49,943 nt of DNA from the IMG/VR virus record IMGVR_UViG_3300033552_000015, positions 1-49,943 of that record; one strand, written 5' to 3'. Each line of letters begins with the position of its first letter. Position 1 is the stretch's first letter. Shown here in pieces: positions 760-49,943 of the stretch. A model generated the notes under the pieces. That model ran no database searches. It had not been told where the DNA came from and saw only the letters and a program-made list of their open reading frames with translations. The stretch comes from a virus. A program made the translations under genes and the position numbers.

Positions 760-761
760 TA

Positions 762-3700: not shown

Positions 3701-5717
3701 ACGCGTCAACAGGCGTTCCGCCAAAAGTAGCGGCTTTAAATTTATAGGTGTTTGAAAGGGCATGGTAGTACATGACGTCATCATCCGCAACCCCTGTAAC
3801 GTTAACATTTGCTAAATTTCCTAAGTTAAAAACAGCCGGAATTGCTGAACCACCTAAACCAGCGGCATCATAATAAAGTTGCGGTTTGTTGTTGGTGCCA
3901 GGATCATTACTTAGTACGGTAGGAATGGTTAAATATTCTGCAAAATTACCTCCTTTAACATGTAGCACAGCTCCGCTTTGGAAAGTGTTTTGGTTTTTAA
4001 TAAAAGCGTCAGACGATGCATTAATATATTGTGAAGGATTGCTTGCATTATAAGGAGTATAACCCAAAGCGGAAATTACCATTCCGTTATTTATGCCTGA
4101 AATGGGTGTAAAGCCCAAAGCAGAAATTACCTCAGCATTTGATGGAGTGTAGCTAATGGCTTTATAGATGCCTGCATGATTTCCCCATCCAAAGGCATTA
4201 TCCCAATTAGTTTTATTATAACCGGTTATTGATGTGACACCTCCAAAATAATTATTGATTTCTGATTTAGAATAAAAATTGCCGTTTAAATAATTTATTA
4301 AATCAGTTTGATTTATTATCGCACCAGATATTTGGCCCCAATTAGCTGTACCGCCGGCACCAGTGCCAGCATTCCAGTTGGCAATATCTGCTAAAGAAAT
4401 GCTTTTCACCCAACCCGGTACCGTTGGATCTGTTTCAGAAAAACCTTGTGTTGGATTGGCGGGATTTAGATTAAAAAAAAAACCGTCGATACCAACACCA
4501 TCTTCCAAATCGCCCTCGGTGTAGCAGTCATCATCAAATAAATATTTATAATCAAAATTTTGGGCGTATAGGCCGTTACCATCATTAACCTCAGCAATAT
4601 TCTTTGAGGTTACGGAAATTGGCAACAACTTGCCACCGGTGTATCTAAACTTAAAAGGAGAGAGGTAGAAATCTCTGTTAAAAGCTATTTCCCTACGGCT
4701 AACAAAACCTGTGGCACAACTAAAATCATTATTTAAAGAAATATCAAAATTTAGCCTGTCGCCTTTCTTTATGTCATCACCGGCTTTCCTAATCCGTTGC
4801 GCTTCTGATTGTATGATTTCAATTTTGGAACTCGCCTTGCCATAAGTCAGCAAAGTATTCACCGCTCCCCAGCTGTTCCAATAAGTAAAGTACCTTACAT
4901 ATTCTTTTAATTGGTAATCTAAAAAGAAAGTGCGGGTTTCTGATATTTTAGCAGCTGCAGTATTTTCTAACCATACCTCATACTTTTGGCAGGTTTTACC
5001 GGCAAGCTGTACGCTTGTGATGATCTGATCAAACTTTACATTAAACGCAAATTTGCTTAAAGCGGTTAAGCTGCCGGAGCATGGAGTTAATATTAGCGGA
5101 GTGCTGTTATCGGTAAAATAAAACTTAGCTTTTAAGCTTGCATTTGCTGTGGCCCTGGTATTTAAAAAGTATAAAAATTGAGGCTGATTGGTGCGGGTAA
5201 ATTGTGTGCCATTACCCTGGCGCAAAAATCTGTCTTTTGTAGCATCGCCAGCATCAGGCTGAATGGCCAATAATAAATTAGAGGAAAAAGAGCTTTGATA
5301 GCTTAACCCGCCATAAGCAACTGTAAAATCTACGGTTTGAGTTAAAGCGGCAACTACACCATCAACACTCTCGGCGTATTTTAAATAAAATTTCCTTACT
5401 GATTTTTTTACGGATAAAAAGGAGGTATCGGCAACGTCCATATAATCAGGCCCGGCATCTTCTAAAATTGCATGTAGCGTATCTTTTAAATCTGTTTGGG
5501 CTTGCCCTGCAGATGCAAAAATTAAAGGAAGGTTTTGTGTATTAATTAATTCAAAGGTAGTGTTGGCAGCATTCTGCACCCAAAGCTCTACATAAATGCG
5601 GTAGTTTTCTTTTTCAAAACCTAAGCCATCTAAATAACTATCACTCTGAAATTTTACCGGAATAAAATTTTTAGAGAAATTGATGGTTGCTGGGATGAGG
5701 ATAGTGGTTATTGCCAT
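762..5717 (-). CDS. Giant tail fibre / receptor-binding protein, allele A (1651 aa)
   Basis: A very long structural protein. The N-terminal third (about residues 1-450) is a non-repetitive, probably tail-attaching domain. After it come many short fibre modules with recurring LGLGSAAYQSD-like and GNHAGLY motifs, two segments resembling pyocin-knob domains (the NTWKRL type), and a conserved C-terminal stretch ending in VELYYQP. Start and stop overlap the neighbouring frames closely: the 159-aa gene stop and this ATG share one base (TAATG). Residues up to about 628 equal allele B. After residue about 775 the alleles are mosaics of shared and unrelated blocks. The likely role is host recognition at the tail tip. 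No reverse transcriptase, invertase or fibre chaperone gene was seen nearby. Confidence 0.85.
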   Translation of the reverse strand: MAITTILIPATINFSKNFIPVKFQSDSYLDGLGFEKENYRIYVELWVQNAANTTFELINTQNLPLIFASAGQAQTDLKDTLHAILEDAGPDYMDVADTSFLSVKKSVRKFYLKYAESVDGVVAALTQTVDFTVAYGGLSYQSSFSSNLLLAIQPDAGDATKDRFLRQGNGTQFTRTNQPQFLYFLNTRATANASLKAKFYFTDNSTPLILTPCSGSLTALSKFAFNVKFDQIITSVQLAGKTCQKYEVWLENTAAAKISETRTFFLDYQLKEYVRYFTYWNSWGAVNTLLTYGKASSKIEIIQSEAQRIRKAGDDIKKGDRLNFDISLNNDFSCATGFVSRREIAFNRDFYLSPFKFRYTGGKLLPISVTSKNIAEVNDGNGLYAQNFDYKYLFDDDCYTEGDLEDGVGIDGFFFNLNPANPTQGFSETDPTVPGWVKSISLADIANWNAGTGAGGTANWGQISGAIINQTDLINYLNGNFYSKSEINNYFGGVTSITGYNKTNWDNAFGWGNHAGIYKAISYTPSNAEVISALGFTPISGINNGMVISALGYTPYNASNPSQYINASSDAFIKNQNTFQSGAVLHVKGGNFAEYLTIPTVLSNDPGTNNKPQLYYDAAGLGGSAIPAVFNLGNLANVNVTGVADDDVMYYHALSNTYKFKAATFGGTPVDAYTKAETNNHFAGLVAITGYNKANWDNAFSYGNHAGLYSVLTHTHTYASLTSKPTTIAGHGITDFNSLGDARFQPLENQRLRTTDVVSFSSISSEGDFTISNNHSGNAATWYGRTGVRNAGNNRSVFLGTYSNNAVVGAHNNALNAWADLYINTVNGFDGGNVYLPSGVFLGGNAVVSNNGGTWGIGISGNAASATNWGGRSANLNVFQNGSDSSFLTVNPVGGGVNISNIGHVQGMLGLGSAAYQSDAKYFQYATFTADANTLAGNRSAFTYALGAPYVGPVAHFDASGYGLQLNANYGGGNAISFRTKNGDTGIWNTWKRLITTDEVSQGATGNTIAQRTVDGDISSRYSFSSYVNTTDNVETGGLTYLIGKFGDNYHRSATANKVQTFLGLGSNAYTSNAFASINGNTGVSFGAFEFSYTSTQFNPALAPRLGLNPMSVKMWNNYFNGTGLGSDYGTVMDYYSLGSHVNTQVYFDASGGSWYRTSPYNAGWQGWQQYITSANLNSFFGSAAFLNASQAATANSIVQRTVNGDIEAREVILNVGVQSFTPSSIVAIFPTTNQAVKVNASGVQAFLGMPTGGDTLQSVTNRGSTTSNNMLLEGNNKNFRINSTSGLYSYLQLTAGTFNSYFIQNANGNNANGVSSGATYIYMENGQNFEFSWLTVTKASINSLGNAAFAGTVTANGNISTSGNMLGFNVADNFVSSGTSIPYYGLGNIGGVATTLSGYYGVKLFTAGVERLHISLDGNANFSQLLKLNKASSGTHAYHELNRVGNTENMFVWQDSGIAKWYLGQRVINGGTGFQLYNVTQAANHVNFYASGNTAFGYSDAADNGHKLSVGGTGYFSNYIQTTRVVNTNAVSDNIEFGMYFNSSQTTDYAVFREAGGWGHPYPDLRIAFHTGIKIGGYFGYGGTRFYNNSDMATQLFSVGDGDQHVRVNNDLYVSGAITAPTIKATSSLQIPVKPGGVANGQTVELYYQP

Positions 5718-6196
5718 TAGCTCAAGTCCTCCCAGTCTGTTGCTTTAACTTCGGCATCATAGCCTTGGTCTAAATTAAAAGTAACAACCCATCCAAATAA
5801 GCCATCAGTTAACGGTCCTATAATCCCTTCATCTGTTTTAGTGATCTGGCTTCCAAAAAGGGTAGGGGCATCAGTGTTAATGCGGTTATAAATTTGGTCG
5901 GCAATGGTTTTGCATTGGTGTGTAATTACCGCTTTAGATAAATTGTCTTTTGGCATTAAAACCATAAATGCACTTTCCACCTCTTCGTATTTACTATCGC
6001 TTTCACCAGCTTTAGAAAATGAAGGGGTTTGTAAAAAAAGGCATGGAAATTTTAAACCATTTTTAAGAGCTGCATGAATATCCTCAAAATCAAAATTCAG
6101 GAAAGCAGTATTTCTTTCATCATTAGGAATATGGCGTAGGTTTTTATTTTGCTGAGCGTAAAATTCAAACCGATTTACAAATTCTTCGATATCCAT
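5717..6196 (-). CDS. Conserved phage structural protein, 159 aa, possible tail-completion protein
   Basis: An acidic 159-aa protein without signal or membrane segment. It begins MDIEEFVNRF and ends with GWVVTFNLDQGYDAE. It is the first gene of the fibre operon, translationally coupled to the fibre by a one-base overlap, and is preceded by the late-promoter element at 6201-6236, whose spacing places this ATG at or near +1. Size and position would suit a tail-terminator or tail-completion protein, but I recognise no diagnostic motif. Copy B (47883-48362) encodes an identical protein. Confidence 0.75.
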   Translation of the reverse strand: MDIEEFVNRFEFYAQQNKNLRHIPNDERNTAFLNFDFEDIHAALKNGLKFPCLFLQTPSFSKAGESDSKYEEVESAFMVLMPKDNLSKAVITHQCKTIADQIYNRINTDAPTLFGSQITKTDEGIIGPLTDGLFGWVVTFNLDQGYDAEVKATDWEDLS

Positions 6197-6200
6197 TGTC

Positions 6201-6236
6201 CGAATATCGAAGAATCAAAAATGCCAATAAACGACA
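6201..6236 (-). promoter_or_regulatory. Late promoter P1 (TGTCGTTTA element plus -7 box)
   Basis: Minus strand: TGTCGTTTA at 6236-6228, a 19-nt spacer, then GATATTCG (compare the Bacteroidetes -7 consensus TAnnTTTG), four more bases, then the ATG at 6196. The motif-to-ATG distance of 31 nt recurs at P2, P3 and P4. It lies in the gap after the 286-aa gene and would start the fibre/tail operon. Confidence 0.6.
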
Positions 6237-6243
6237 GTAGATT

Positions 6244-7104
6244 TTAAACTCTACTATTAGCTTTTGCTTCTTCAAAAGCGATGTGTTGCTCTTCTAAACC
6301 ATCAAGCACAAACATAGCATTGGTATATTTTAATTGCTCTGTAGTTCCCCACTTTGGACCTAGTAATTCTCTAAAAACAGTCATCCAGTCGGTAATATTT
6401 CCTTTTGTTTCTTCTGTTTCTTTCTCTGGAGCAGTTTCAGCTTCTTCGGGGGTTTTAATTGCTTTAGGAAAAACGCGTTGCCTGGCATCCATTACAGAAA
6501 GTAATGCAGATGAAAACCAGGTTATTACAGCAGTTTTATAGGGTGATGGAATTGAAGCAACGTCAAAGGCGTGTTTATAAAGTAAGTTTTCATTGAAAAT
6601 GTATCTCAAATCTCCCGTGTAATTCAAATTATTTTCATTTTGTTTAGGATCAGCAACCCGATACAGCGTAGCGATGAGCATGTTTAAGTATTTATCATCC
6701 TTAAACTCGTAATACAATTGGTAAAACTGATAAGCAAAACACCATTCGCCAAAACAAATATTACTTAAATCATCATTTGGGGCAATACATTCTTTTTTAT
6801 TGATTTTAAGTTTCGGAAATTTATTAATCACCGGTGGTCTGGTGTTTAATATAAAATCAATTAATGGCATCAATGCATAAAGCTGCTCATCATCAAAATA
6901 GGTAAGAATATGAAAGTTCTTTTGCTCAAACAATAATGAAATAAGGGAAACAAATACAGTGTCTTTATCTGCTTTGGCGTAGGTGAGAATTTGAAGTACA
7001 GAGGCGTATTGTTGCGGATTTAATTCTTCCCAATTTTCGGCAATGCTAACTTCATAATCGGTTAAATTTCCTAATCGCTGAAAGGTTCCGCTTACTTTTT
7101 TCAT
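6244..7104 (-). CDS. Conserved phage protein of unknown function, 286 aa
   Basis: A soluble protein, rich in Leu, Phe and Tyr, with an acidic insert (EEAETAPEKETEETKG, about residues 220-235). The C-terminal 50 residues (LLGPKWGTTEQL to ANSRV) form a helical tail. The start overlaps the spanin stop by one base (TGATG). It closes the operon that begins with the portal group and lies just before promoter P1. Being one gene before the tail genes, it might be a tail-assembly factor, but nothing in the sequence proves that. Copy B (48410-49270) encodes an identical protein. Confidence 0.7.
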   Translation of the reverse strand: MKKVSGTFQRLGNLTDYEVSIAENWEELNPQQYASVLQILTYAKADKDTVFVSLISLLFEQKNFHILTYFDDEQLYALMPLIDFILNTRPPVINKFPKLKINKKECIAPNDDLSNICFGEWCFAYQFYQLYYEFKDDKYLNMLIATLYRVADPKQNENNLNYTGDLRYIFNENLLYKHAFDVASIPSPYKTAVITWFSSALLSVMDARQRVFPKAIKTPEEAETAPEKETEETKGNITDWMTVFRELLGPKWGTTEQLKYTNAMFVLDGLEEQHIAFEEAKANSRV

Positions 7105-7643
7105 CAGATGGTTTTTTTAACAAGTATTATAAAAATTAAGATGATTAAGCCACCCAACCAAACGTACCAGGGAATACTTTGCATAATTCCATCGGTTACA
7201 ATTTCCTTTCTCTTTTGCTCTTTATTTTCTTGTTTTTGTTCTGCTGTTTTTTTAGCAGATGATTTCCCTGTTTTCTCATCTGTCCATTTTTCCTCAATAG
7301 TTGGCAGTTTGCCTTTTGATGCTGCATCAACCATATCTCTAAAATCTGCTTTTAGATCTTTAACAGTACTTTCTAGTTCCTTGGAGTTTAAATTTAATAC
7401 GGTTAAACTATTGAGTTTCTCAGTAAATTTTATTCCTTCAGATGTTATAAACGGATTGCTTACACCTCCGTAAGTAATCTTGCTATAAGTTTTAAAAGTT
7501 GATGTGTCTATTTCAGACTCTTCAACTGTTTTTTCCTCCTTAATTTCCGTTACAGTATTATCAATGGTCTTTTCTTTATTTTTAAAAAGAGCACAGCTGC
7601 TAAAAAAAAGCAATCCAATTAATATTACAAAAAGGTTTTTCAT
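7104..7643 (-). CDS. Predicted unimolecular spanin (outer-membrane lipoprotein with C-terminal TM helix)
   Basis: Residues 1-17 form a lipoprotein signal with lipobox LFFSSC, so Cys17 would be acylated. Residues about 20-155 are hydrophilic, charged and helix-forming (a Lys/Glu-rich stretch at 120-145). Residues about 158-175 are a strong membrane helix followed by KK. An N-terminal outer-membrane anchor and a C-terminal inner-membrane anchor in one chain is the architecture of u-spanins such as T1 gp11, which fuse the two membranes at the end of lysis. It lies directly behind the endolysin, holin and coiled-coil genes. Alternative: an unrelated lipoprotein that happens to carry a C-terminal helix. 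Confidence 0.75.
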   Translation of the reverse strand: MKNLFVILIGLLFFSSCALFKNKEKTIDNTVTEIKEEKTVEESEIDTSTFKTYSKITYGGVSNPFITSEGIKFTEKLNSLTVLNLNSKELESTVKDLKADFRDMVDAASKGKLPTIEEKWTDEKTGKSSAKKTAEQKQENKEQKRKEIVTDGIMQSIPWYVWLGGLIILIFIILVKKTI

Positions 7644-7653
7644 TTTATTTAAA

Positions 7654-7953
7654 TTATTCTTTATTTAAAAGTTTATCCAGTTTCATATTTATGATGATAA
7701 TGTCCGCCTTATTTAAACTTATGTTTTGCTTGTTCAGCTCGGCGGTTACGTTTAAAGTTTTTAACTCGGTTTTAATAATAGAAAATTCTTGTTTTTGCTC
7801 GGTGGTAAGTTCTTTCTTTTCAGTTTTCATATCCGCCAATTTTTCACCAAGCTTGTCAATTTTATTGTCCATTGTAACAATAAAAACAATAAACGTTACC
7901 AAATAAATCACGTACTGTATAATGTCTTTTGCTTTAATATTTAATGTTTCCAT
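7654..7953 (-). CDS. Small membrane-anchored coiled-coil lysis protein
   Basis: 99 aa. A single membrane helix (about residues 11-28, IIQYVIYLVTFIVFIV) is followed by a long heptad-like helix rich in Lys, Glu and Leu. This is the layout of XhlA/haemolysin-type accessory lysis proteins and also of inner-membrane spanin subunits. It sits between the holin-like gene (two bases downstream of its start) and the u-spanin, so a role in holin regulation or lysis is likely. The family is not certain. Confidence 0.65.
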   Translation of the reverse strand: METLNIKAKDIIQYVIYLVTFIVFIVTMDNKIDKLGEKLADMKTEKKELTTEQKQEFSIIKTELKTLNVTAELNKQNISLNKADIIIINMKLDKLLNKE

Positions 7954-24367: not shown

Positions 24368-24655
24368 ATGATGGGAAAGAATGAAGAAGATTTAATTAGC
24401 GATTTATTCCCTTATACCAGGGCAGAAATAAAGCATTTAATAAGCGCTTTGAAAGATGATGATCTGAGTTATGTTGATTTAATCAGTCTCTACCAGGAGT
24501 TGGATTTGTTACACCCACGGGTAAAGTTTAAGAGCTGTTTTAAGGGTTACTTTTCTATAATGGAACAATTACGCCTGGATAAAAATTTAAAAGGAACTAA
24601 AGCGGCAAGTTTATTTATGGCCACAGCATTAAGGTTGTATTTACATGCTTTATAA
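24368..24655 (+). CDS. Small plus-strand protein of unknown function, 95 aa
   Basis: Begins with two Met codons (24368 and 24371). A helical, charged protein, EEDLISDLFPYTRAEIKHL to ATALRLYLHAL. It lies right after the repeat-rich gap and ends before a terminator shared with the converging gene. Its proximity to the possible origin could mean a replication or regulatory role, but no motif shows one. Confidence 0.55.
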   Translation: MMGKNEEDLISDLFPYTRAEIKHLISALKDDDLSYVDLISLYQELDLLHPRVKFKSCFKGYFSIMEQLRLDKNLKGTKAASLFMATALRLYLHAL

Positions 24656-24678: not shown

Positions 24679-24706
24679 AATATCCTGACCGATTGGCCAG
24701 GATATT
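24679..24706 (-). terminator. Intrinsic terminator between convergent genes
   Basis: Arms AATATCCTG and CAGGATATT (9 bp, perfect). On the minus strand eight T residues follow, so it ends the zinc-ribbon gene. The plus-strand gene stops 23 bases before it. Confidence 0.85.
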
Positions 24707-24725: not shown

Positions 24726-24923
24726 TCAATTTAAACTTTGGATAATGTTCTCTAACTCTAAAATTCTTTGATTGTTGACTGCAATGGATTCTTCTTGTTT
24801 TAAATGTAATTGTTGCTTATCCAAACATTTATCACATTTAGGGATAGGGAAAGCATGACTTTCAGGTGGTTCAATTGCATGGCCACAAAAGAGGCATTTG
24901 AGAACATTAGGTTTTGATGTCAT
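24726..24923 (-). CDS. Small zinc-ribbon protein, 65 aa
   Basis: Two Cys pairs, CLFC (Cys10, Cys13) and CDKC (Cys30, Cys33), with His in between, form a zinc ribbon or treble-clef-like site. The C-terminal half is a coiled-coil-like helix (NNQRILELENIIQSLN). Such proteins are frequent in phage accessory regions and may bind DNA or a host protein. It is a single-gene unit with its own terminator. Confidence 0.65.
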   Translation of the reverse strand: MTSKPNVLKCLFCGHAIEPPESHAFPIPKCDKCLDKQQLHLKQEESIAVNNQRILELENIIQSLN

Positions 24924-25006: not shown

Positions 25007-25147
25007 GTTAACGGTAAAATTTTTCCTAGGGCACCTTTCGGAAATTCCGTTAACGCTGAAGGGCGCAAAACGAAACGTTCCGATAACAGTCAACTTGCGA
25101 AAGATGCCGATTTATAAATCGCATAAGGGCATCCTTGGCAAGTTTTT
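25007..25147. other. Palindrome-rich non-coding segment upstream of the DUF488 genes
   Basis: In the 338-base gap (24924-25261): GTTAACGG (25007) pairs with CCGTTAAC (25047); CGGAAATTCCG is a perfect 11-bp palindrome (25039-25049); and 25092-25144 folds into a long hairpin (AACTTGC/GCAAGTT then GATGCC/GGCATC) with CGATTTATAAATCG, a perfect 14-bp palindrome, overlapping its inner stem and loop, followed by T5. It could be a small RNA, a terminator, or the end of an inserted cassette. Confidence 0.5.
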
Positions 25148-25249
25148 ATGTTGCCTGCAATGCGTTGACACCCTACAAAATTCGGCATAACAATCATCAC
25201 TTTAACTCACAAAATTCACCTTTCGCTGAAACCTTAAAGAGTATTTTCG

Positions 25250-25257
25250 TACTTTTG
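25250..25257 (+). promoter_or_regulatory. -7 box of the DUF488 operon
   Basis: TACTTTTG matches TAnnTTTG exactly and ends four bases before the ATG at 25262, so transcription would begin at or next to the start codon (leaderless). I see no convincing -33 TTTG at 19-21 bases, so the box is only suggestive. Confidence 0.4.
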
Positions 25258-25261
25258 TAAT

Positions 25262-26146
25262 ATGTTTTACAGACGAAAAATTATATTAGGCCTGATGCAA
25301 GCTTTTGACGGAAATTTGCCTAAAATATCCTTGCAAAAACTGCTTTTTTTGTTTGCAAATAGACAATCCAAGCCTGATTATGATTTTGTTCCTTATAAGT
25401 ACGGCTGCTATTCATTTTCAGCTAATGCCGACCTTACAGCAATGGTTGGACATGGGCAATTATCGGAAGATCAAACGAGTTTTACAAAAATTGGTTCAGT
25501 TGACTATGTAAAAACGTTAAACGAAAAGGATAAAAAAATCTTGATTGACATTAAAACTACTTATGGTAAGTTGACAACTAATTCTTTGATGAAATTAACT
25601 TACTTGAACTACCAGTATTATGCAATCAATAGCGTTAAGGCAAAAGAAATTTTAAATGAAGAACAATATGGCAAGGTTTTAAAAGCAAAACCAATCAATG
25701 CTAATACAATCCTTTATACGATTGGCTACGAAGGAATTTCGTTAGAAGAGTATTTAAATCGGTTGATTAAAAATGATGTAAAGGTTTTAGTGGATGTTAG
25801 AAACAATGCCCTAAGCATGAAATTTGGTTTTTCAAAAACACAATTAAAAACTTTTTGTGCCAGCTTAAACATTGAATATTTGCATATACCAGAAGTTGGT
25901 ATTCAATCTAACCAAAGACAGGAATTAAAAACACAGACCGATTACGACAATCTTTTTGACATTTATAAAAAGCAGAATTTAAAGAAAACTACAAGCCAGC
26001 AACAACAAATTTTAAGCTTATTAAAAGAGAAAAAGAGAATTGCTTTAACTTGCTTTGAAGCGAATATTTGCCAATGCCACAGAAAACATTTAGCGGAAGC
26101 AATTATAACATTACCTGAATGGAATTATGAATTAAAACATATTTAG
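25262..26146 (+). CDS. Antitoxin-like (Panacea/SocA-like) domain fused to a DUF488 domain
   Basis: 294 aa. Residues 1-140 resemble the SocA/DUF4065 (Panacea) fold (KISLQKLLFLFAN, DFVPYKYGCYSF). Residues 150-285 are a DUF488 domain: YTIGYEG (152-158), LVDVR (176-180), GFSK, and the signature CFEANICQCHR (264-274), where Cys and His could bind metal or act in catalysis. DUF488 function is not established; it is common in accessory DNA. The gene is on the plus strand against the phage operons and is followed three bases later by a partner gene. A defence or DNA-modification-related cassette is plausible. Confidence 0.7.
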   Translation: MFYRRKIILGLMQAFDGNLPKISLQKLLFLFANRQSKPDYDFVPYKYGCYSFSANADLTAMVGHGQLSEDQTSFTKIGSVDYVKTLNEKDKKILIDIKTTYGKLTTNSLMKLTYLNYQYYAINSVKAKEILNEEQYGKVLKAKPINANTILYTIGYEGISLEEYLNRLIKNDVKVLVDVRNNALSMKFGFSKTQLKTFCASLNIEYLHIPEVGIQSNQRQELKTQTDYDNLFDIYKKQNLKKTTSQQQQILSLLKEKKRIALTCFEANICQCHRKHLAEAIITLPEWNYELKHI

Positions 26147-26149
26147 TTT

Positions 26150-26971
26150 ATGGCGTTGACCAAAGTTCTTATTGCTGTTAAAACATACCCTACTCTTTCA
26201 AGCAAGTATGACGAACTTGTTTGCACGGCAGGTTTTCTTGAAGATGGGCGTTGGATAAGGGTTTACCCAATTCCATTTCGGAAACTTGAATATGATAAGC
26301 AATACAGTAAATATGATTGGGTTGAAGTTGACCTTGAAAGAAATAATTCTGACTTCCGTTTAGAAAGCCATAAACCTAAAGCAATCGAAACCGCTTTTAC
26401 AATTGTTGACCATTTAGGAACAGAAGATGGTTGGAGATTTAGAAAAGAAATTGTACTCAAAAATGTACACACCAACATGACTGACTTAATTGCGGAAGCA
26501 AAAGACCCGAAAAAATATACTTCGCTTGCCGTTTTTAAGCCCACCGAAATATTAAGCTTTGAAATTGAAAAGGCAGAAAGAGAATGGGATAAAGATAAAT
26601 TAGCTCAACTCAAAGCAAATGCCCAGCAACTTGACCTTTTTAAAAATTCAGACAACCCTTTTGAAGTAGTTAAAAAACTACCATACAAATTTTCGTATAA
26701 ATTTAAAAGTGAAGATGAAAAGGAAAGAACTTTAATGATTGAGGATTGGGAAATTGGACAACTATATTGGAATTGTTTGAGACGACACGAAGGCGATGAG
26801 GCAAAAGCTTGTGCAGATGTTAAGAAAAAATATTTCGATGACTTTGCAAAAACGAAAGACTTGTATTTATTCTTAGGAACAACGAGAGTACACCACCTTA
26901 GAGCACCAAATCCGTTTGTAATTATTGGAACATTCCATCCTAAGAAAATAGAACAGACTTCATTATTCTAA
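26150..26971 (+). CDS. Conserved partner of the DUF488 protein, 273 aa
   Basis: Begins with KVLIAVKTYPTLSSKYDELV; WIRVYPIPFRKL (about residues 35-46) is a recognisable conserved block. The C-terminal LFLGTTRVHHL and PFVIIGTFHPKK blocks are also of a type seen in accessory regions of many bacteria. No known catalytic motif. It starts three bases after the DUF488 gene stop, so the two are co-translated and probably work together. I recall similar proteins near DUF488 genes, but cannot name a system. Base composition seems slightly different from the phage genes, consistent with separate acquisition. Confidence 0.65.
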   Translation: MALTKVLIAVKTYPTLSSKYDELVCTAGFLEDGRWIRVYPIPFRKLEYDKQYSKYDWVEVDLERNNSDFRLESHKPKAIETAFTIVDHLGTEDGWRFRKEIVLKNVHTNMTDLIAEAKDPKKYTSLAVFKPTEILSFEIEKAEREWDKDKLAQLKANAQQLDLFKNSDNPFEVVKKLPYKFSYKFKSEDEKERTLMIEDWEIGQLYWNCLRRHEGDEAKACADVKKKYFDDFAKTKDLYLFLGTTRVHHLRAPNPFVIIGTFHPKKIEQTSLF

Positions 26972-27196
26972 CAAACAAGACAAGCACTCTGACCTAGCAC
27001 AGCAGGCAACAAAAGGTTTGGTAAAATACGGGCGGAAGGAAGTTACCTTCAGCATTTGTAATTCTGTTGTGCATTGGTTCGGGGCTGGACATTATCCATT
27101 TAGCTTTTTGTTGTTATTTTCAACAAAAGTTTTTCAATCAGCATTTGTTCCGGACTTGACCAGCTACTATTCCCGTACTTAGCCTAGCCTCTAACG
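26972..27196. other. Non-coding segment after the DUF488 cassette with direct and inverted repeats
   Basis: Contains the direct repeat TCAGCATTTGT at 27051-27061 and 27138-27148, a hairpin CTTTTTGTTG/CAACAAAAG (27104-27129), and CTAACGTTAAATT near its end (27191). No gene is visible. With the palindrome-rich segment on the other side, it brackets the DUF488 pair, suggesting a mobile or recombination-acquired cassette. An integron attC was considered, but the core boxes do not match well. Confidence 0.4.
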
Positions 27197-27322
27197 TTAA
27201 ATTGAATGCAGCACACCTTCTGGTTTGCGCTTATGCATAATCTTAATTTTCTCACAACTCCTAAAGCTCACAATCAACATGAGAATGGCTAAGCCTACGT
27301 AAACTATAATTTTAGGTTTCAT
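27197..27322 (-). CDS. Tiny membrane protein, 41 aa
   Basis: MKPKIIVYVGLAILMLIV is a single membrane helix with a basic start, followed by a hydrophilic basic tail (SCEKIKIMHKRKPEGV). It is the last gene of the early minus-strand operon. Phage early regions often end in such small membrane proteins, for example for superinfection exclusion; no specific role can be given. Confidence 0.5.
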   Translation of the reverse strand: MKPKIIVYVGLAILMLIVSFRSCEKIKIMHKRKPEGVLHSI

Positions 27323-42229: not shown

Positions 42230-43129
42230 TTAAAAAATATGCGGGTTTCCATTATTAGCAGCAAATACTTCATGATTTAAAATGTTTATTGGTGAAGGTC
42301 CATAACCTGTATTTAAAAATATTGGCTGGAAATATGATCCTTGCATTCCCCCTGCTGGAATAGTTGAACTTCCCGAAGCAAGATCAAAATCATCGTAATA
42401 ATCAAATTGATAAATATAACTTGCCAATAACGGTCTATCACTTGTGGCATAAATACCGGAGGCATTCTGATTTAATTGTGCGTTTACTAATTGCCTAGTT
42501 ACTTGAATTTGTTGTGGTGAATAATACGTTCCTTCAGGATTCGTAATAAAGCTTCTGTAAATATGAATTTCAGTTGCCCACGCAAGTGAACCAAATGAAA
42601 GCGGAACGCTAAGATTAGCCGATGCACCAGCCGCCAAACTGCCGGAATTAACATGATTATCATTTGTATCAACTAAAGCTCCTAAACTGTCATATCTACT
42701 GTGTCTAACCGCATATCCATGAGTTGTTGAGGCATCATAAAAAGCAGAAAGAAAATTGGCTGTTAATGTGGCGTTAAATTCATCATTTGGAGGGAATACA
42801 ACGCTAACATTTGAAGTGTCGCCCATTGTGTTTAATCCTCCATCGTTAAAAACAACTTTTTCGCCTGAAGCATTAATTCTGTGCTTACTCCAACGTGAGG
42901 TATTATGATGATTAATATTATATGAAAAAGGGGATGCACAACCTGCAAAGCCTTCATTTGCTCCGTCTTTAACAACTAAAAGTCCATCTAAGTAGAATAA
43001 CGTTTTGATGTTTACTCCGTATGCTGCAAGCTTTAAAGCTAATAAAGCATCATGTTTCACCACTCCAACGTTATGAATTGGTAATGATGCAGCACCATTG
43101 TTTAGATATGCAGTTGCAGGCGCTCCCAT
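42230..43129 (-). CDS. Tail protein downstream of the fibre, copy B, complete (299 aa)
   Basis: The full version of the gene truncated at 1-759. The start shares one base with the fibre stop (TAATG); in copy A three extra bases remove this overlap. The C-terminus (FLNTGYGPSPINILNHEVF) is followed by 23 bases to the 126-aa gene. Rich in Ser, Asn, Ala and Tyr, like a fibre or tip component. About twenty substitutions separate it from copy A, several changing residues (for example Trp against Lys near residue 80). Confidence 0.8.
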   Translation of the reverse strand: MGAPATAYLNNGAASLPIHNVGVVKHDALLALKLAAYGVNIKTLFYLDGLLVVKDGANEGFAGCASPFSYNINHHNTSRWSKHRINASGEKVVFNDGGLNTMGDTSNVSVVFPPNDEFNATLTANFLSAFYDASTTHGYAVRHSRYDSLGALVDTNDNHVNSGSLAAGASANLSVPLSFGSLAWATEIHIYRSFITNPEGTYYSPQQIQVTRQLVNAQLNQNASGIYATSDRPLLASYIYQFDYYDDFDLASGSSTIPAGGMQGSYFQPIFLNTGYGPSPINILNHEVFAANNGNPHIF

Positions 43130-46100
43130 TATGGTTGATAATAAAGTTCAACGGTTTGACCATTAGCAACGCCGCCCGGTTTTACTGGAATTTGTAAAGA
43201 TGATGTTGCTCTAATTGTTGGGGCGGTTATTGCTCCGCTTACATATAAGTCATTAAATACTCTTACGTGGTTATCGCTATCACCAACACTAAAAATTTGA
43301 GTAGCCATATCCGAGTTATTATAAAACCTTGTTCCACCATAACCAAAATAGGCACCTAACTTTATTCCTGTGTGAAAAGCTATTCTTAAATCAGGATAAG
43401 GGTGTGTCCAAGCACCTGCTTCTCTATAAATAGCATAATCAGCTGTTTGACTACTGTTAAAGTACATTCCAAAAGTATTATCTGTATCAACTGATACAGT
43501 GTTTACTAATCTCGGAGTTTGTATGTAGTTGCTAAAATATCCAGTTCCGTTTACTGAAAGTTTGTGTCCATTATCAGCACTATCAGCATACCCAAAAGCC
43601 GTATTTCCGCTTGCATAAAAATTAACGTGATTTGTTCCTTGCGTAGCGTTGTATAATTGAAATCCTGTGCCTCCGTTGATTACTCTTTGCCCTAAATACC
43701 ATTTAGCTATTCCAGAATCATTCCAAACAAACATATTCTCATTAGGACTTACCCTATTTAATTGATGATATGAGTGACCTGAATTAGCTGCGTTTAATAT
43801 TAAAACACCACTTGCTGTAACTGTTCCACCGACAACTAAACCGGCGGCGTTTAGATAATAACTTGAACCATCGTAATAAAGATATTTAATGTCCGATGCT
43901 CCAAAATAAATAACCCCTGTTCCGTCACCTCTGTTTGCTCTAATATCTCTTGCTGTTAAATTTCCAGCAAAATAACCTGTTCCATTAACGGATAGTTTGT
44001 AGCCTTGATTAGCTATATAACCAATTTGTACATTTCCACCGCTAGGGTTTAATTTTAATAATTCATTACCCTGCGCTTGTAAATTAGTTCCATCTGCAAC
44101 AAATTGTAAATAACCATTTCTAACAGTTCCAGCAGTATTATAACCACTTATGTAAGCTGCATCTGCATTTATTCTTAAAGCTTCTGTTGTTGACGAGTAT
44201 ATTGTTGTGCTTGTTGAATTTCCTCTACTAATAACACTTTGCAAAGTATCTCCGCCGCTTGGCATTCCTAAAAACGCTTGTACCTTATTTGCCGTAGCTG
44301 AACGGTGATAATTATCTCCAAACTTGCCAATCAAATAAGTTAATCCACCTGTTTCAACATTATCAGTTGTATTTACATAAGAACTAAATGAGTAGCGAGA
44401 AGATATATCTCCATCAACTGTTCTTTGAGCTATTGTGTTTCCAGTTGCTCCCTGTGATAAATCGTCAGTAGTAATTACTCTTTTCCAAGGATTCCAAGTT
44501 CCACTATCTCCATTTCTAGCTCTAAATGCTAATGCTCCAATAGAAGCGTTATATGTAGCATTTAATTGTAAGCCATAACCACTAGCCTCAAAGTGAGCTA
44601 TCGGACCGTTATATGGAGCGTTAATTTGATAAGTAAAAGCACTTCTATTTCCTGCTAATGTATTTGCATCCGCTGTAAAAGTAGCGTATTGAAAGTATTT
44701 AGCGTCTGACTGATAAGCTGCTGTTCCTAAACCTAAGAATGTTCTTACACCTCCAGCATCAGAAGTTCTATAATAGTTGTCACTTGCTTTTGCTATAATA
44801 CCAGTTACTTGTCCTGCTCCAATTAAACCATCTGACATATTAATATAAGTGCCGTTTATATAACCACTTGAGTCACGTTGCGCAATAGAATTAGCTAATG
44901 CACCTTGTGAAGCATTCAAGTAAGCTGCTGAACCTAATTCGTCTTTAAATTGGACTTCTCTCCAAGCAGACCATACATTCCCCCAAAAAACTCTTGTTTT
45001 GAAAGTTCCATTATTTGTATAATGATTTTGAGCGTAACTATAACCGCTTTCAGAACCAACTTGCGTTAAAATTCCATAAGTATCAGGGTAATTACTATTT
45101 CCAGTTCCATTTCCTGTTGTGTTAAGAACAACCCCGTCAGTAGTGAATGAATTAGCATTAGAATTAGATGCAATATTTCCTAAGTATTTAAAATATCTAT
45201 TGTCTGATTGATAAGCAGCTGAACCTAAACCTAAGAATGATTGCATTTGAGAAGACGAGGCAACACCTTGTCTATTATTAACTCCATCATATACCATTGT
45301 AAACCCAACAGAACCAGCTAATGCAGAACCGGAGTAATTTAACCCATTCCATTGTGTAGAATTAGTTGCACTATTTGCATTACCATTTAAGGCTCCAACA
45401 AATGTTGGGGCTGTAACTGTAACTCCAAAAGTTGCTGCTCCTGTTGGCGCAAAAGAAAGTCTTGTAATATACGCAGAAACACCGTCCCATATTTTTATTC
45501 CTCGATTGCCGCCACCATCAATTTGTATATTATTAAAAGTAGCTATTCCTGTTATTATGTCTAAAGTGTTCCCTGTTAAAGCCCCACCAAAAACTCCTGT
45601 TCCAAAACTGACATTATTTCCAACGCTCAACCTTTGATTTTCTAAAGGCTGAAACCTTGCATCACCTAAAGAGTTAAAATCAGTAATTCCATAACCTGCA
45701 ATAGTTGTTGGTTTGCTTGTTAGGCTTGCATAAGTGTGAGTGTGAGCTAATAGCGAATACAATCCCGCATGATTTCCATACGAAAAAGCATTATCCCAAT
45801 TCGCTTTATTATAACCAGTAATCGCAACTAAACCAGCAAAATGGTTGTTTGTTTCCGATTTAGTGTAAGCATCAACAGGCGTTCCGCCAAAAGTAGCGGC
45901 TTTAAATTTATAGGTGTTTGAAAGGGCATGATAGTACATGACGTAATCATCCGCAACCCCTGTAACGTTAACATTTGCTAAATTTCCTAAGTTAAAAATA
46001 GCCGGAATTGCTGAACCACCTAAACCAGCGGCATCATAATAAAGTTGCGGTTTGTTGTTGGTGCCAGGATCATTACTTAGTACGGTAGGAATGGTTAAAT

Positions 46101-47883
46101 ATTCTGCAAAATTACCTCCTTTAACATGTAGCACAGCTCCGCTTTGGAAAGTGTTTTGGTTTTTAATAAAAGCGTCAGACGATGCATTAATATATTGTGA
46201 AGGATTGCTTGCATTATAAGGAGTATAACCCAAAGCGGAAATTACCATTCCGTTATTTATGCCTGAAATGGGTGTAAAGCCCAAAGCAGAAATTACCTCA
46301 GCATTTGATGGAGTGTAGCTAATGGCTTTATAGATGCCTGCATGATTTCCCCATCCAAAGGCATTATCCCAATTAGTTTTATTATAACCGGTTATTGATG
46401 TGACACCTCCAAAATAATTATTGATTTCTGATTTAGAATAAAAATTGCCGTTTAAATAATTTATTAAATCAGTTTGATTTATTATCGCACCAGATATTTG
46501 GCCCCAATTAGCTGTACCGCCGGCACCAGTGCCAGCATTCCAGTTGGCAATATCTGCTAAAGAAATGCTTTTCACCCAACCCGGTACCGTTGGATCTGTT
46601 TCAGAAAAACCTTGTGTTGGATTGGCGGGATTTAGATTAAAAAAAAAACCGTCGATACCAACACCATCTTCCAAATCGCCCTCGGTGTAGCAGTCATCAT
46701 CAAATAAATATTTATAATCAAAATTTTGGGCGTATAGGCCGTTACCATCATTAACCTCAGCAATATTCTTTGAGGTTACGGAAATTGGCAACAACTTGCC
46801 ACCGGTGTATCTAAACTTAAAAGGAGAGAGGTAGAAATCTCTGTTAAAAGCTATTTCCCTACGGCTAACAAAACCTGTGGCACAACTAAAATCATTATTT
46901 AAAGAAATATCAAAATTTAGCCTGTCGCCTTTCTTTATGTCATCACCGGCTTTCCTAATCCGTTGCGCTTCTGATTGTATGATTTCAATTTTGGAACTCG
47001 CCTTGCCATAAGTCAGCAAAGTATTCACCGCTCCCCAGCTGTTCCAATAAGTAAAGTACCTTACATATTCTTTTAATTGGTAATCTAAAAAGAAAGTGCG
47101 GGTTTCTGATATTTTAGCAGCTGCAGTATTTTCTAACCATACCTCATACTTTTGGCAGGTTTTACCGGCAAGCTGTACGCTTGTGATGATCTGATCAAAC
47201 TTTACATTAAACGCAAATTTGCTTAAAGCGGTTAAGCTGCCGGAGCATGGAGTTAATATTAGCGGAGTGCTGTTATCGGTAAAATAAAACTTAGCTTTTA
47301 AGCTTGCATTTGCTGTGGCCCTGGTATTTAAAAAGTATAAAAATTGAGGCTGATTGGTGCGGGTAAATTGTGTGCCATTACCCTGGCGCAAAAATCTGTC
47401 TTTTGTAGCATCGCCAGCATCAGGCTGAATGGCCAATAATAAATTAGAGGAAAAAGAGCTTTGATAGCTTAACCCGCCATAAGCAACTGTAAAATCTACG
47501 GTTTGAGTTAAAGCGGCAACTACACCATCAACACTCTCGGCGTATTTTAAATAAAATTTCCTTACTGATTTTTTTACGGATAAAAAGGAGGTATCGGCAA
47601 CGTCCATATAATCAGGCCCGGCATCTTCTAAAATTGCATGTAGCGTATCTTTTAAATCTGTTTGGGCTTGCCCTGCAGATGCAAAAATTAAAGGAAGGTT
47701 TTGTGTATTAATTAATTCAAAGGTAGTGTTGGCAGCATTCTGCACCCAAAGCTCTACATAAATGCGGTAGTTTTCTTTTTCAAAACCTAAGCCATCTAAA
47801 TAACTATCACTCTGAAATTTTACCGGAATAAAATTTTTAGAGAAATTGATGGTTGCTGGGATGAGGATAGTGGTTATTGCCAT
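43129..47883 (-). CDS. Giant tail fibre / receptor-binding protein, allele B (1584 aa)
   Basis: Same N-terminal ~628 residues as allele A, a few substitutions to residue about 775, then a different series of modules. B carries a full pyocin-knob-like block (NNGTFKTRVFWGNVWSAW) and others absent from A, shares the block SQGATGNTIAQRTVDGDISS and neighbours with A, and ends with a similar C-terminal ~190 residues with scattered changes. It is 67 residues shorter than A. The pattern is recombination between related fibre genes, with the most change where receptor contact would be expected. Confidence 0.85.
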   Translation of the reverse strand: MAITTILIPATINFSKNFIPVKFQSDSYLDGLGFEKENYRIYVELWVQNAANTTFELINTQNLPLIFASAGQAQTDLKDTLHAILEDAGPDYMDVADTSFLSVKKSVRKFYLKYAESVDGVVAALTQTVDFTVAYGGLSYQSSFSSNLLLAIQPDAGDATKDRFLRQGNGTQFTRTNQPQFLYFLNTRATANASLKAKFYFTDNSTPLILTPCSGSLTALSKFAFNVKFDQIITSVQLAGKTCQKYEVWLENTAAAKISETRTFFLDYQLKEYVRYFTYWNSWGAVNTLLTYGKASSKIEIIQSEAQRIRKAGDDIKKGDRLNFDISLNNDFSCATGFVSRREIAFNRDFYLSPFKFRYTGGKLLPISVTSKNIAEVNDGNGLYAQNFDYKYLFDDDCYTEGDLEDGVGIDGFFFNLNPANPTQGFSETDPTVPGWVKSISLADIANWNAGTGAGGTANWGQISGAIINQTDLINYLNGNFYSKSEINNYFGGVTSITGYNKTNWDNAFGWGNHAGIYKAISYTPSNAEVISALGFTPISGINNGMVISALGYTPYNASNPSQYINASSDAFIKNQNTFQSGAVLHVKGGNFAEYLTIPTVLSNDPGTNNKPQLYYDAAGLGGSAIPAIFNLGNLANVNVTGVADDYVMYYHALSNTYKFKAATFGGTPVDAYTKSETNNHFAGLVAITGYNKANWDNAFSYGNHAGLYSLLAHTHTYASLTSKPTTIAGYGITDFNSLGDARFQPLENQRLSVGNNVSFGTGVFGGALTGNTLDIITGIATFNNIQIDGGGNRGIKIWDGVSAYITRLSFAPTGAATFGVTVTAPTFVGALNGNANSATNSTQWNGLNYSGSALAGSVGFTMVYDGVNNRQGVASSSQMQSFLGLGSAAYQSDNRYFKYLGNIASNSNANSFTTDGVVLNTTGNGTGNSNYPDTYGILTQVGSESGYSYAQNHYTNNGTFKTRVFWGNVWSAWREVQFKDELGSAAYLNASQGALANSIAQRDSSGYINGTYINMSDGLIGAGQVTGIIAKASDNYYRTSDAGGVRTFLGLGTAAYQSDAKYFQYATFTADANTLAGNRSAFTYQINAPYNGPIAHFEASGYGLQLNATYNASIGALAFRARNGDSGTWNPWKRVITTDDLSQGATGNTIAQRTVDGDISSRYSFSSYVNTTDNVETGGLTYLIGKFGDNYHRSATANKVQAFLGMPSGGDTLQSVISRGNSTSTTIYSSTTEALRINADAAYISGYNTAGTVRNGYLQFVADGTNLQAQGNELLKLNPSGGNVQIGYIANQGYKLSVNGTGYFAGNLTARDIRANRGDGTGVIYFGASDIKYLYYDGSSYYLNAAGLVVGGTVTASGVLILNAANSGHSYHQLNRVSPNENMFVWNDSGIAKWYLGQRVINGGTGFQLYNATQGTNHVNFYASGNTAFGYADSADNGHKLSVNGTGYFSNYIQTPRLVNTVSVDTDNTFGMYFNSSQTADYAIYREAGAWTHPYPDLRIAFHTGIKLGAYFGYGGTRFYNNSDMATQIFSVGDSDNHVRVFNDLYVSGAITAPTIRATSSLQIPVKPGGVANGQTVELYYQP

Positions 47884-48362
47884 TAGCTCAAGTCCTCCCA
47901 GTCTGTTGCTTTAACTTCGGCATCATAGCCTTGGTCTAAATTAAAAGTAACAACCCATCCAAATAAGCCATCAGTTAACGGTCCTATAATCCCTTCATCT
48001 GTTTTAGTGATCTGGCTTCCAAAAAGGGTAGGGGCATCAGTGTTAATGCGGTTATAAATTTGGTCGGCAATGGTTTTGCATTGGTGTGTAATTACCGCTT
48101 TAGATAAATTGTCTTTTGGCATTAAAACCATAAATGCACTTTCCACCTCTTCGTATTTACTATCGCTTTCACCAGCTTTAGAAAATGAAGGGGTTTGTAA
48201 AAAAAGGCATGGAAATTTTAAACCATTTTTAAGAGCTGCATGAATATCCTCAAAATCAAAATTCAGGAAAGCAGTATTTCTTTCATCATTAGGAATATGG
48301 CGTAGGTTTTTATTTTGCTGAGCGTAAAATTCAAACCGATTTACAAATTCTTCGATATCCAT
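47883..48362 (-). CDS. Conserved phage structural protein, copy B (159 aa)
   Basis: Identical in protein to 5717-6196 and in the same arrangement: one-base overlap with fibre allele B, and promoter element P1 in front (48367-48402). See the copy A entry for the features. Confidence 0.75.
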   Translation of the reverse strand: MDIEEFVNRFEFYAQQNKNLRHIPNDERNTAFLNFDFEDIHAALKNGLKFPCLFLQTPSFSKAGESDSKYEEVESAFMVLMPKDNLSKAVITHQCKTIADQIYNRINTDAPTLFGSQITKTDEGIIGPLTDGLFGWVVTFNLDQGYDAEVKATDWEDLS

Positions 48363-48366
48363 TGTC

Positions 48367-48402
48367 CGAATATCGAAGAATCAAAAATGCCAATAAACGA
48401 CA
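48367..48402 (-). promoter_or_regulatory. Late promoter P1, copy B
   Basis: The duplicate of 6201-6236: TGTCGTTTA at 48402-48394 with the same -7 box and 31-nt distance to the ATG at 48362. Not an independent occurrence of the motif. Confidence 0.6.
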
Positions 48403-48409
48403 GTAGATT

Positions 48410-49270
48410 TTAAACTCTACTATTAGCTTTTGCTTCTTCAAAAGCGATGTGTTGCTCTTCTAAACCATCAAGCACAAACATAGCATTGGTATATTTTAAT
48501 TGCTCTGTAGTTCCCCACTTTGGACCTAGTAATTCTCTAAAAACAGTCATCCAGTCGGTAATATTTCCTTTTGTTTCTTCTGTTTCTTTCTCTGGAGCAG
48601 TTTCAGCTTCTTCGGGGGTTTTAATTGCTTTAGGAAAAACGCGTTGCCTGGCATCCATTACAGAAAGTAATGCAGATGAAAACCAGGTTATTACAGCAGT
48701 TTTATAGGGTGATGGAATTGAAGCAACGTCAAAGGCGTGTTTATAAAGTAAGTTTTCATTGAAAATGTATCTCAAATCTCCCGTGTAATTCAAATTATTT
48801 TCATTTTGTTTAGGATCAGCAACCCGATACAGCGTAGCGATGAGCATGTTTAAGTATTTATCATCCTTAAACTCGTAATACAATTGGTAAAACTGATAAG
48901 CAAAACACCATTCGCCAAAACAAATATTACTTAAATCATCATTTGGGGCAATACATTCTTTTTTATTGATTTTAAGTTTCGGAAATTTATTAATCACCGG
49001 TGGTCTGGTGTTTAATATAAAATCAATTAATGGCATCAATGCATAAAGCTGCTCATCATCAAAATAGGTAAGAATATGAAAGTTCTTTTGCTCAAACAAT
49101 AATGAAATAAGGGAAACAAATACAGTGTCTTTATCTGCTTTGGCGTAGGTGAGAATTTGAAGTACAGAGGCGTATTGTTGCGGATTTAATTCTTCCCAAT
49201 TTTCGGCAATGCTAACTTCATAATCGGTTAAATTTCCTAATCGCTGAAAGGTTCCGCTTACTTTTTTCAT
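48410..49270 (-). CDS. Conserved phage protein, copy B (286 aa)
   Basis: Identical in protein to 6244-7104, with the same one-base overlap with the spanin gene. No differences seen. Confidence 0.7.
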   Translation of the reverse strand: MKKVSGTFQRLGNLTDYEVSIAENWEELNPQQYASVLQILTYAKADKDTVFVSLISLLFEQKNFHILTYFDDEQLYALMPLIDFILNTRPPVINKFPKLKINKKECIAPNDDLSNICFGEWCFAYQFYQLYYEFKDDKYLNMLIATLYRVADPKQNENNLNYTGDLRYIFNENLLYKHAFDVASIPSPYKTAVITWFSSALLSVMDARQRVFPKAIKTPEEAETAPEKETEETKGNITDWMTVFRELLGPKWGTTEQLKYTNAMFVLDGLEEQHIAFEEAKANSRV

Positions 49271-49809
49271 CAGATGGTTTTTTTAACAAGTATTATAAAA
49301 ATTAAGATGATTAAGCCACCCAACCAAACGTACCAGGGAATACTTTGCATAATTCCATCGGTTACAATTTCCTTTCTCTTTTGCTCTTTATTTTCTTGTT
49401 TTTGTTCTGCTGTTTTTTTAGCAGATGATTTCCCTGTTTTCTCATCTGTCCATTTTTCCTCAATAGTTGGCAGTTTGCCTTTTGATGCTGCATCAACCAT
49501 ATCTCTAAAATCTGCTTTTAGATCTTTAACAGTACTTTCTAGTTCCTTGGAGTTTAAATTTAATACGGTTAAACTATTGAGTTTCTCAGTAAATTTTATT
49601 CCTTCAGATGTTATAAACGGATTGCTTACACCTCCGTAAGTAATCTTGCTATAAGTTTTAAAAGTTGATGTGTCTATTTCAGACTCTTCAACTGTTTTTT
49701 CCTCCTTAATTTCCGTTACAGTATTATCAATGGTCTTTTCTTTATTTTTAAAAAGAGCACAGCTGCTAAAAAAAAGCAATCCAATTAATATTACAAAAAG
49801 GTTTTTCAT
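49270..49809 (-). CDS. Predicted u-spanin, copy B
   Basis: Identical to 7104-7643: lipobox Cys17 and a C-terminal membrane helix. See the copy A entry. Confidence 0.75.
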   Translation of the reverse strand: MKNLFVILIGLLFFSSCALFKNKEKTIDNTVTEIKEEKTVEESEIDTSTFKTYSKITYGGVSNPFITSEGIKFTEKLNSLTVLNLNSKELESTVKDLKADFRDMVDAASKGKLPTIEEKWTDEKTGKSSAKKTAEQKQENKEQKRKEIVTDGIMQSIPWYVWLGGLIILIFIILVKKTI

Positions 49810-49819
49810 TTTATTTAAA

Positions 49820-49943
49820 TTATTCTTTATTTAAAAGTTTATCCAGTTTCATATTTATGATGATAATGTCCGCCTTATTTAAACTTATGTTTTGCTTGTT
49901 CAGCTCGGCGGTTACGTTTAAAGTTTTTAACTCGGTTTTAATA
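49820..49943 (-). CDS. Coiled-coil lysis protein, copy B, 5'-truncated by the window
   Basis: The last 40 codons and stop of the 99-aa gene seen complete at 7654-7953. The membrane helix lies beyond the window edge. Confidence 0.8.
   Translation of the reverse strand, partial: IKTELKTLNVTAELNKQNISLNKADIIIINMKLDKLLNKE

Follow-up and report, generated by a model that had tools for sequence, protein, structure and literature searches.

A candidate defence gene pair in a phage genome is probably the cargo of an integron-type cassette from the Bacteroidota

The window analysed here is the whole of a 49,943-base IMG/VR virus record, which carries terminase, portal, tape-measure and integrase genes. 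Within it, two open reading frames of the + strand, here called A and B, are separated by a gap of three bases and run against the phage operons of the - strand, as the ORF coordinates confirm and as a preliminary description of this DNA had reported. The features on which the following argument draws are these (positions are those of the window):

25007-25054, + strand: second left hairpin, GTTAACGG...CCGTTAAC, outside the cassette (folding z -1.6)
25092-25144, + strand: hairpin left of the cassette and outside it (I18; folding z -2.1)
25150-25163, + strand: left core and 5' end of the cassette, G/TTGCCTGCAATGC, the complement of GCACAGCAGGCAAC at 26997-27010 (inverted repeat I19)
25151-27196, + strand: putative integron-type gene cassette of 2,046 bp, cut at G/TT on both sides, with a 5' end that complements its own R''
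25250-25257, + strand: box of the Bacteroidota promoter type TAnnTTTG (TACTTTTG), inside the cassette and just 5' of the start codon
25262-26146, + strand: gene A (PDC-M19A), 294 aa, with a DarG-C-terminal/Panacea-like domain at residues ~1-145 and DUF488 at residues 161-280
25742-26101, + strand: DUF488 domain of A, with invariant D178, R180, H208, R219, C264, E266, C272, H273 and R274
26150-26971, + strand: gene B (PDC-M19B), 273 aa, with predicted tandem OB folds
27002-27202, + strand: attC-like site, from R'' GCAGGCAAC (27002-27010) to R' GTTAAAT (27196-27202)
27197-27322, - strand: small phage ORF of 41 aa, outside the cassette, whose stop codon abuts the cassette end

Two further features of the window lie away from the pair. 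A strong intrinsic terminator-like hairpin at 24679-24706, with 12 pairs and a T tail on the - strand, sits between the ORFs at 24368-24655 and 24726-24923. The ends of the window (1-7777 and 42371-49943) repeat each other, with 99.5% identity over 4.3 kb, except that a large - strand gene has diverged between them (1651 versus 1584 aa, ~89-94% where alignable); the repetition points either to an assembly that joined two strains or to a tail gene that varies.

A and B each match one component of PDC-M19, a PADLOC candidate defence system, along almost the whole protein (E 9e-130 and 3e-128), and both component genes are present and adjacent. Such candidates, or PDCs, were proposed through guilt-by-embedding and are mostly unvalidated (PMC12988326). 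In a sample of relatives made up of 13 viral loci and the best 80 of 503 genomic matches, an A-type gene was found directly upstream of B in all 92 relatives with upstream DNA, mostly at a distance of 0-3 bases, so the conserved pairing on which the preliminary description relied holds throughout. Homologues of the pair were far commoner in bacterial genomes than in viral contigs. Among more distant relatives, B adjoins a stand-alone DUF488 gene on plasmids of Pseudomonas, Burkholderia, Massilia and Fischerella. These DUF488 genes are without the N-terminal domain of A that is described below, which argues that this domain is an accessory and that DUF488 and B form the core. On a Sulfolobus plasmid, the neighbour of the B homologue is a 168-aa protein without a Pfam match. 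A distant homologue of B in Gordonia phage Eviarto (genes 43-44), near the phage integrase, overlaps an annotated 'immunity repressor', an HTH protein without DUF488.

The DUF488 domain of A (residues 161-280, E 6.5e-25) retains its aspartate, arginine, histidine, cysteine and glutamate signature residues, listed above, in 44/44 aligned A sequences. These include Cys264, Cys272 and His273, the residues singled out in the preliminary description, and with the whole set conserved the domain looks, from its sequence, catalytically intact. The same description had called A a fusion of a Panacea-like domain to DUF488. The DUF488 part of this proposal stands, but the N-terminus scores 14.2 bits against the SocA/Panacea Pfam family, short of its cut-off of 25.7. 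A structural model of A (pLDDT 94) matched chains B and D of 7yk3, a DarTG complex, with probability 1.0, TM 0.53-0.55 by target and 13-15% identity; these chains we take to be the DarG half of the complex, that is, the partner-binding domain of DarG. DarG profiles also match this N-terminus weakly by sequence, which is consistent with the fold match, and on both counts, sequence and modelled fold, DarG is a better match than Panacea. The N-terminus is therefore probably antitoxin-like, as had been suggested, in the sense that its predicted fold resembles the DarG C-terminal domain, but it does not belong to the core of the system, since the stand-alone DUF488 genes beside B lack it. Searches of Pfam, NCBIfam and PDB sequences gave no match for B, and among the PHROGs it matches phrog_25907, a family without known function. 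Its model (pLDDT 86) found its best fold match in the tandem OB domains of Teb1, at E 5.6e-4 and probability 0.99 but with a TM of only ~0.3, and on the basis of this predicted fold B likely binds nucleic acid.

When an integron cassette is excised as a circle, the first bases of its linear form complete its own attC site and must therefore be complementary to the R'' box at the 3' end of that same cassette, a rule that nothing would impose on ordinary hairpins. We took this complementarity as the decisive test. Other scans were less informative: a strict search for RYYYAAC/GTTRRRY misses known elements, a loose stem scan of the 350 bp 3' of the pair gave few clear sites among relatives, and the folding z-score is the wrong test, because even a clear host attC gives only z -0.6. 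In the window, the cassette begins with GTTGCCTGC, which complements the R'' box 3' of gene B exactly, with 9/9 agreement in the core and 12/14 overall, a result reached in 2 of 2000 shuffles. The element to which this box belongs is an imperfect palindrome with the arrangement R''-L''...L'-R', and its stem score was equalled by none of 200 shuffles. A and B are both read in the orientation of this site, which follows B, and the unit is bounded by G/TT on either side. The rule is also obeyed, with the same cassette boundary 109-112 nt 5' of the start codon, in three unrelated genomes (L017, L064 and L069), and similarity between the window and its relatives begins at ~25150. TAnnTTTG is the Bacteroidota promoter consensus, and sequence similar to the region of this box precedes gene A in close relatives. 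The preliminary description had suggested that the phage acquired a cassette, and this idea is borne out in a stricter sense than was claimed, namely that of integron-cassette ends; of the span then given, 25007-27196, the right end is exactly the cassette end, but the left end has to be moved to 25151.

Less survives of the claim that more than 200 bases of palindromic, repeat-rich DNA flank the pair on both sides. The whole flanks fold like their shuffles (z -1.1 and -0.1), and we rejected the idea that they are generally structured DNA, since their folding is at chance level. What the left flank has is short hairpins, and the right flank a single long attC-like element, so that the extent of structure was overstated. 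Symmetric structured flanks are not supported either, as only the right element belongs to the cassette and both left hairpins lie outside the mobile unit. The hairpin at 25092-25144 scored well in the stem scan and was considered as a second attC, a candidate that we set aside because the hairpin lies outside the cassette and has no repeats in 25 host genomes. It may be a terminator-like hairpin of the phage or the remnant attC of a lost cassette. The phage has one secure attC site, the right one; with at least two it would be a CALIN. An exact viral match to part of this left hairpin lies inside an unrelated gene and was dismissed as coincidence.

The right element has relatives in bacterial chromosomes. 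Searching 25 Bacteroidota genomes with positions 26984-27200 recovered copies of up to 89% identity in a Ferruginibacter MAG (G007), together with two copies at 76-79% in a Sediminibacterium MAG (G005). The genes 5' of these copies include a GNAT gene, a type III restriction gene, a VIT-family gene and others. The right flank therefore occurs in Bacteroidota chromosomes after unrelated genes and is not confined to this phage family, a restriction that the preliminary description had named as contrary to its reading. The stem of the window site, GTTTGGTAAAATACGGG/CCCGTACTTAGCCTAGCC, is a diverged form of the stem in the chromosomal copies. In an alignment containing this site, 84.8% of cells pair, a share that drops to 49% or less once the alignment is slid; covariation taken alone is only moderate. 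In the Sediminibacterium MAG (G005:C1:10500-24500), the type III restriction gene and the VIT-family gene each precede a copy of the right-end element of the window, raising the possibility that restriction genes travel as such cassettes.

A gene pair 97% identical to that of the window stands in a chromosomal cassette array on a Ferruginibacter MAG contig (L015). It is followed, all on one strand, by genes for SnoaL-like, cytidine-deaminase-family, HTH-WYL regulator, Cass2, DUF1801 and GNAT-like proteins, of which Cass2 is an integron-associated effector-binding family, and these genes are separated at intervals by imperfect palindromes of the type TAACA...CGTTA. Eight elements from seven loci could be aligned as one subtype, R1, with a 10-bp stem inside a TAAC/GTTA clamp. 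The R1 stem shows compensatory changes, with a covariation score reached by none of 500 shuffles, and the pairing of the alignment (78%) falls to 48% or less when slid. A model of R1 does not recognise the window site, which is of another subtype, and both subtypes are present in the L015 array. Across four arrays the cassette rule was obeyed at 9/9 positions by 9 of the 10 cassettes (87/90 bases), and none of 20,000 permutations was as good; within L015, the 5' ends of three cassettes match their own R'' at 8, 9 and 9 of 9 positions. Bases 1-725 of L015 are GC-rich DNA of another character that cuts into gene A at 725. This stretch is probably an assembly chimera, and for this reason the 5' cassette end of the pair is not visible there.

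The same pair also lies between short attC-like elements (CACATACGCCTGAAGGCG) in two viral contigs, L009 (4950-5140 and 6800-7300) and L010. These have another boundary and a different, short attC type, and their 5' end agrees with R'' at 12/14 positions. The two contigs look like copies of one element, which is a second route of phage carriage. Since most chromosomal PDC-M19 loci show no cassette ends, the pair is only sometimes a cassette.

Taken together, these comparisons of sequence lead us to put at roughly 0.87 the probability that the gene pair is the cargo of an integron-type mobile cassette, drawn from a Bacteroidota pool and inserted in the phage. The pair could instead be an ordinary phage moron, a defence pair that illegitimate or homologous recombination brought in and whose flanks contain hairpins by chance. 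Such an origin would suit the many homologues without cassette ends, the chance-level folding of the whole flanks and the other genes that a related phage (G018) has in the same region, but it is made very improbable by the complementarity of the 5' end to the cassette's own R'', by the boundary shared with three unrelated genomes and by the repetition of the 3' element after unrelated genes. A mobile element of some other kind with hairpin ends, for instance a transposase-dependent single-strand element or a MITE-like one, is scarcely credible, for although the 3' element is repeated, bears a hairpin and has no recombinase gene of its own, the repeat comes after genes one by one in same-strand arrays, every cassette start complements its own R'', and the gene that adjoins the arrays encodes a tyrosine recombinase, not a transposase.

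If the pair is indeed integron-type cargo, the unit would once have been a circle, joining ...TCTAACG to TTGCCTGC, in which the two ends met in one folded site; this would explain why the 5' end and R'' are complementary. A host tyrosine recombinase of the array type would have excised the cassette through its folded site and inserted it into a non-array (attG-like) site of the phage, at a G/TT core that adjoins a stop codon, that of a small gene of the phage. Events of this attG type, with insertion at a G/TT core away from an array, are known for IntI1, according to work cited in PMC12901181. In the window, the left cut comes right after ...GGCAAGTTTTTATG, adjoining the hairpin, and the right cut leaves TTAAATTG..., in which TTA is the stop codon of the 41-aa ORF. 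The empty joint that this predicts, ...GGCAAGTTTTTATG/TTAAATTGAATGC, had no exact match in viral contigs. G018 shares structural genes and the integrase with the phage of the window, and no empty site was found in it, the cassette region being too different. The phage's own integrase was considered as the mover and rejected, as it falls outside the array-linked family (31 bits to TIGR02249).

To what extent do the hosts possess such a recombinase? Among 148 genomes of the phylum Bacteroidota, R1-type attC-like sites occur in 47 (E 1e-8 or better) and the array-type integrase family in 51 (E 1e-70 or better). Within genomes for which sites were listed, 16 of the 33 integrases lie no more than 15 kb from a site, compared with ~0.6 expected if sites were unclustered, and integrase genes are thus found beside cassette arrays. 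All 12 same-strand integrases are upstream of the array, and four others are divergent from it. Matches to the integron-integrase profile TIGR02249, all below the cut-off, stand beside arrays in five of the first genomes, and the four array-linked integrases scanned score 176-201 bits, against the 265 needed. The IntI additional domain is absent from all 11 array-linked integrases compared, with ~41 residues of IntI1 missing, and the long-form proteins carry an extra N-terminal stretch. In a phylogenetic tree, read without the row 'short_G021' (wrong frame), the array-linked integrases form a cluster distinct from the Xer proteins of the hosts and from IntI1, and support for it is modest (82/79). 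Shorter relatives of the integrase (G021:C1:2629439, G026:C2:1943240, G038:C33:59629 and G057:C33:386947) are divergent from attC-like sites, as in classical integrons and unlike the long form, which lies upstream on the same strand. On a plasmid of Chryseobacterium sp. SNU WT5 (NZ_CP041688.1), R1 sites lie 3' of the integrase (WP_143853951.1), which NCBI names 'site-specific tyrosine recombinase/integron integrase', with a group II intron among the sites, and this platform also holds Crp/Fnr, RidA and SRPBCC genes. Judged by these features, the host platform is a putative integron variant, integron-like in its working, which departs from integrons in one defining trait, the IntI domain. On balance we lean towards the broader view that the Bacteroidota hold a widespread, largely overlooked integron lineage with an Xer-type recombinase that does without a supposedly indispensable domain, and that phages of this phylum take up its cassettes, defence candidates included, and transfer them from host to host.

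A role in defence is plausible for the cargo, given its status as a PADLOC candidate and its presence in mobile elements and temperate phages. On one plasmid there is a neighbouring HEPN/Toprim gene, and this neighbour, the carriage by phages and plasmids and the promoter box of the cassette itself all fit a self-sufficient module for defence or superinfection exclusion. We therefore propose tentatively, with confidence a little short of even, that the pair is a module which acts against phages or excludes superinfection, with expression driven by the promoter inside the cassette. In such a module, the dual-OB protein B would bind nucleic acid produced in the course of infection, the catalytic effector would be the DUF488 domain of A, acting through the conserved D-R, H, R and CxE...CHR residues, and the DarG-like N-domain of A would keep the complex inactive until infection. 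An unlikely though not far-fetched alternative is that the pair works like a toxin-antitoxin system and serves chiefly to maintain the cassette or prophage in the cell; DUF488 would then be a toxin restrained by the DarG-like domain or by B, and phage resistance would be secondary. The antitoxin fold in A and the wide spread of the pair on plasmids are in keeping with it, as is the observation that toxin-antitoxin cassettes typically have two genes and a promoter of their own (review PMC8618304); against this, the DarG-like domain is absent where a stand-alone DUF488 adjoins B, and toxicity is not known for the pair. That the pair benefits the phage directly, by controlling lysogeny or by countering host defences, seems improbable. 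The pair is present in several viral contigs and the Gordonia homologue of B overlaps an annotated immunity repressor close to an integrase, but this neighbour lacks DUF488, and the predominance of homologues in bacterial genomes points elsewhere.

IntegronFinder 2.0 (2022) recorded, among RefSeq complete genomes, one complete integron in the Bacteroidetes proper, that of Salinibacter, besides integrases without cassettes (PMC9024848), and reviews count the Bacteroidota among the phyla with integrons (PMC8618304). Against this reported near absence, about one-third of the Bacteroidota genomes sampled here hold attC-like sites of one recognisable subtype. If confirmed, this would open a large cassette pool to functional screening, would make the claimed need for the extra domain of IntI directly testable, and would show that phages transport such cassettes, with candidate defence genes among what they carry. 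In the freely accessible journal literature on DUF488, PDCs and Bacteroidota integrons, we found no description of this combination.

Set beside known systems, the phage pair does not differ from PDC-M19 at the protein level, and the cassette context is the new part. The DarTG and SocA-Panacea antitoxins would resemble it through the predicted DarG-like fold in the N-domain of A (7yk3); unlike DarTG, A has no macrodomain, there is no DarT, and the N-domain is fused to DUF488 instead. The best family match of the array-linked integrases is NCBIfam NF040815 ('site-specific tyrosine recombinase/integron integrase', XerA-like), which the four tested match at 198-219 bits, below the 220-bit cut-off, and NCBI uses the same name for a 63%-identical Chryseobacterium plasmid protein. 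Integrons are resembled in the tyrosine recombinase beside same-strand arrays of short cassettes and in attC-like sites that obey the circle rule. The differences are that the array-linked integrases lack the IntI additional domain and have an N-terminal extension, and that most lie upstream on the array strand rather than divergent from it. Integron gene cassettes and clusters of attC sites have been found in 21 phages with IntegronFinder and HattCI (Qi et al. 2023, PMC9892861), and the likeness to these phage cassettes lies in an attC cassette carried by a phage without an integron integrase. The text of that paper makes no mention of Bacteroidetes, whereas both the attC subtype and the host platform of the present case belong to the Bacteroidota. 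Phage-borne attC sites being already described, the cassette is an added case of a known kind.
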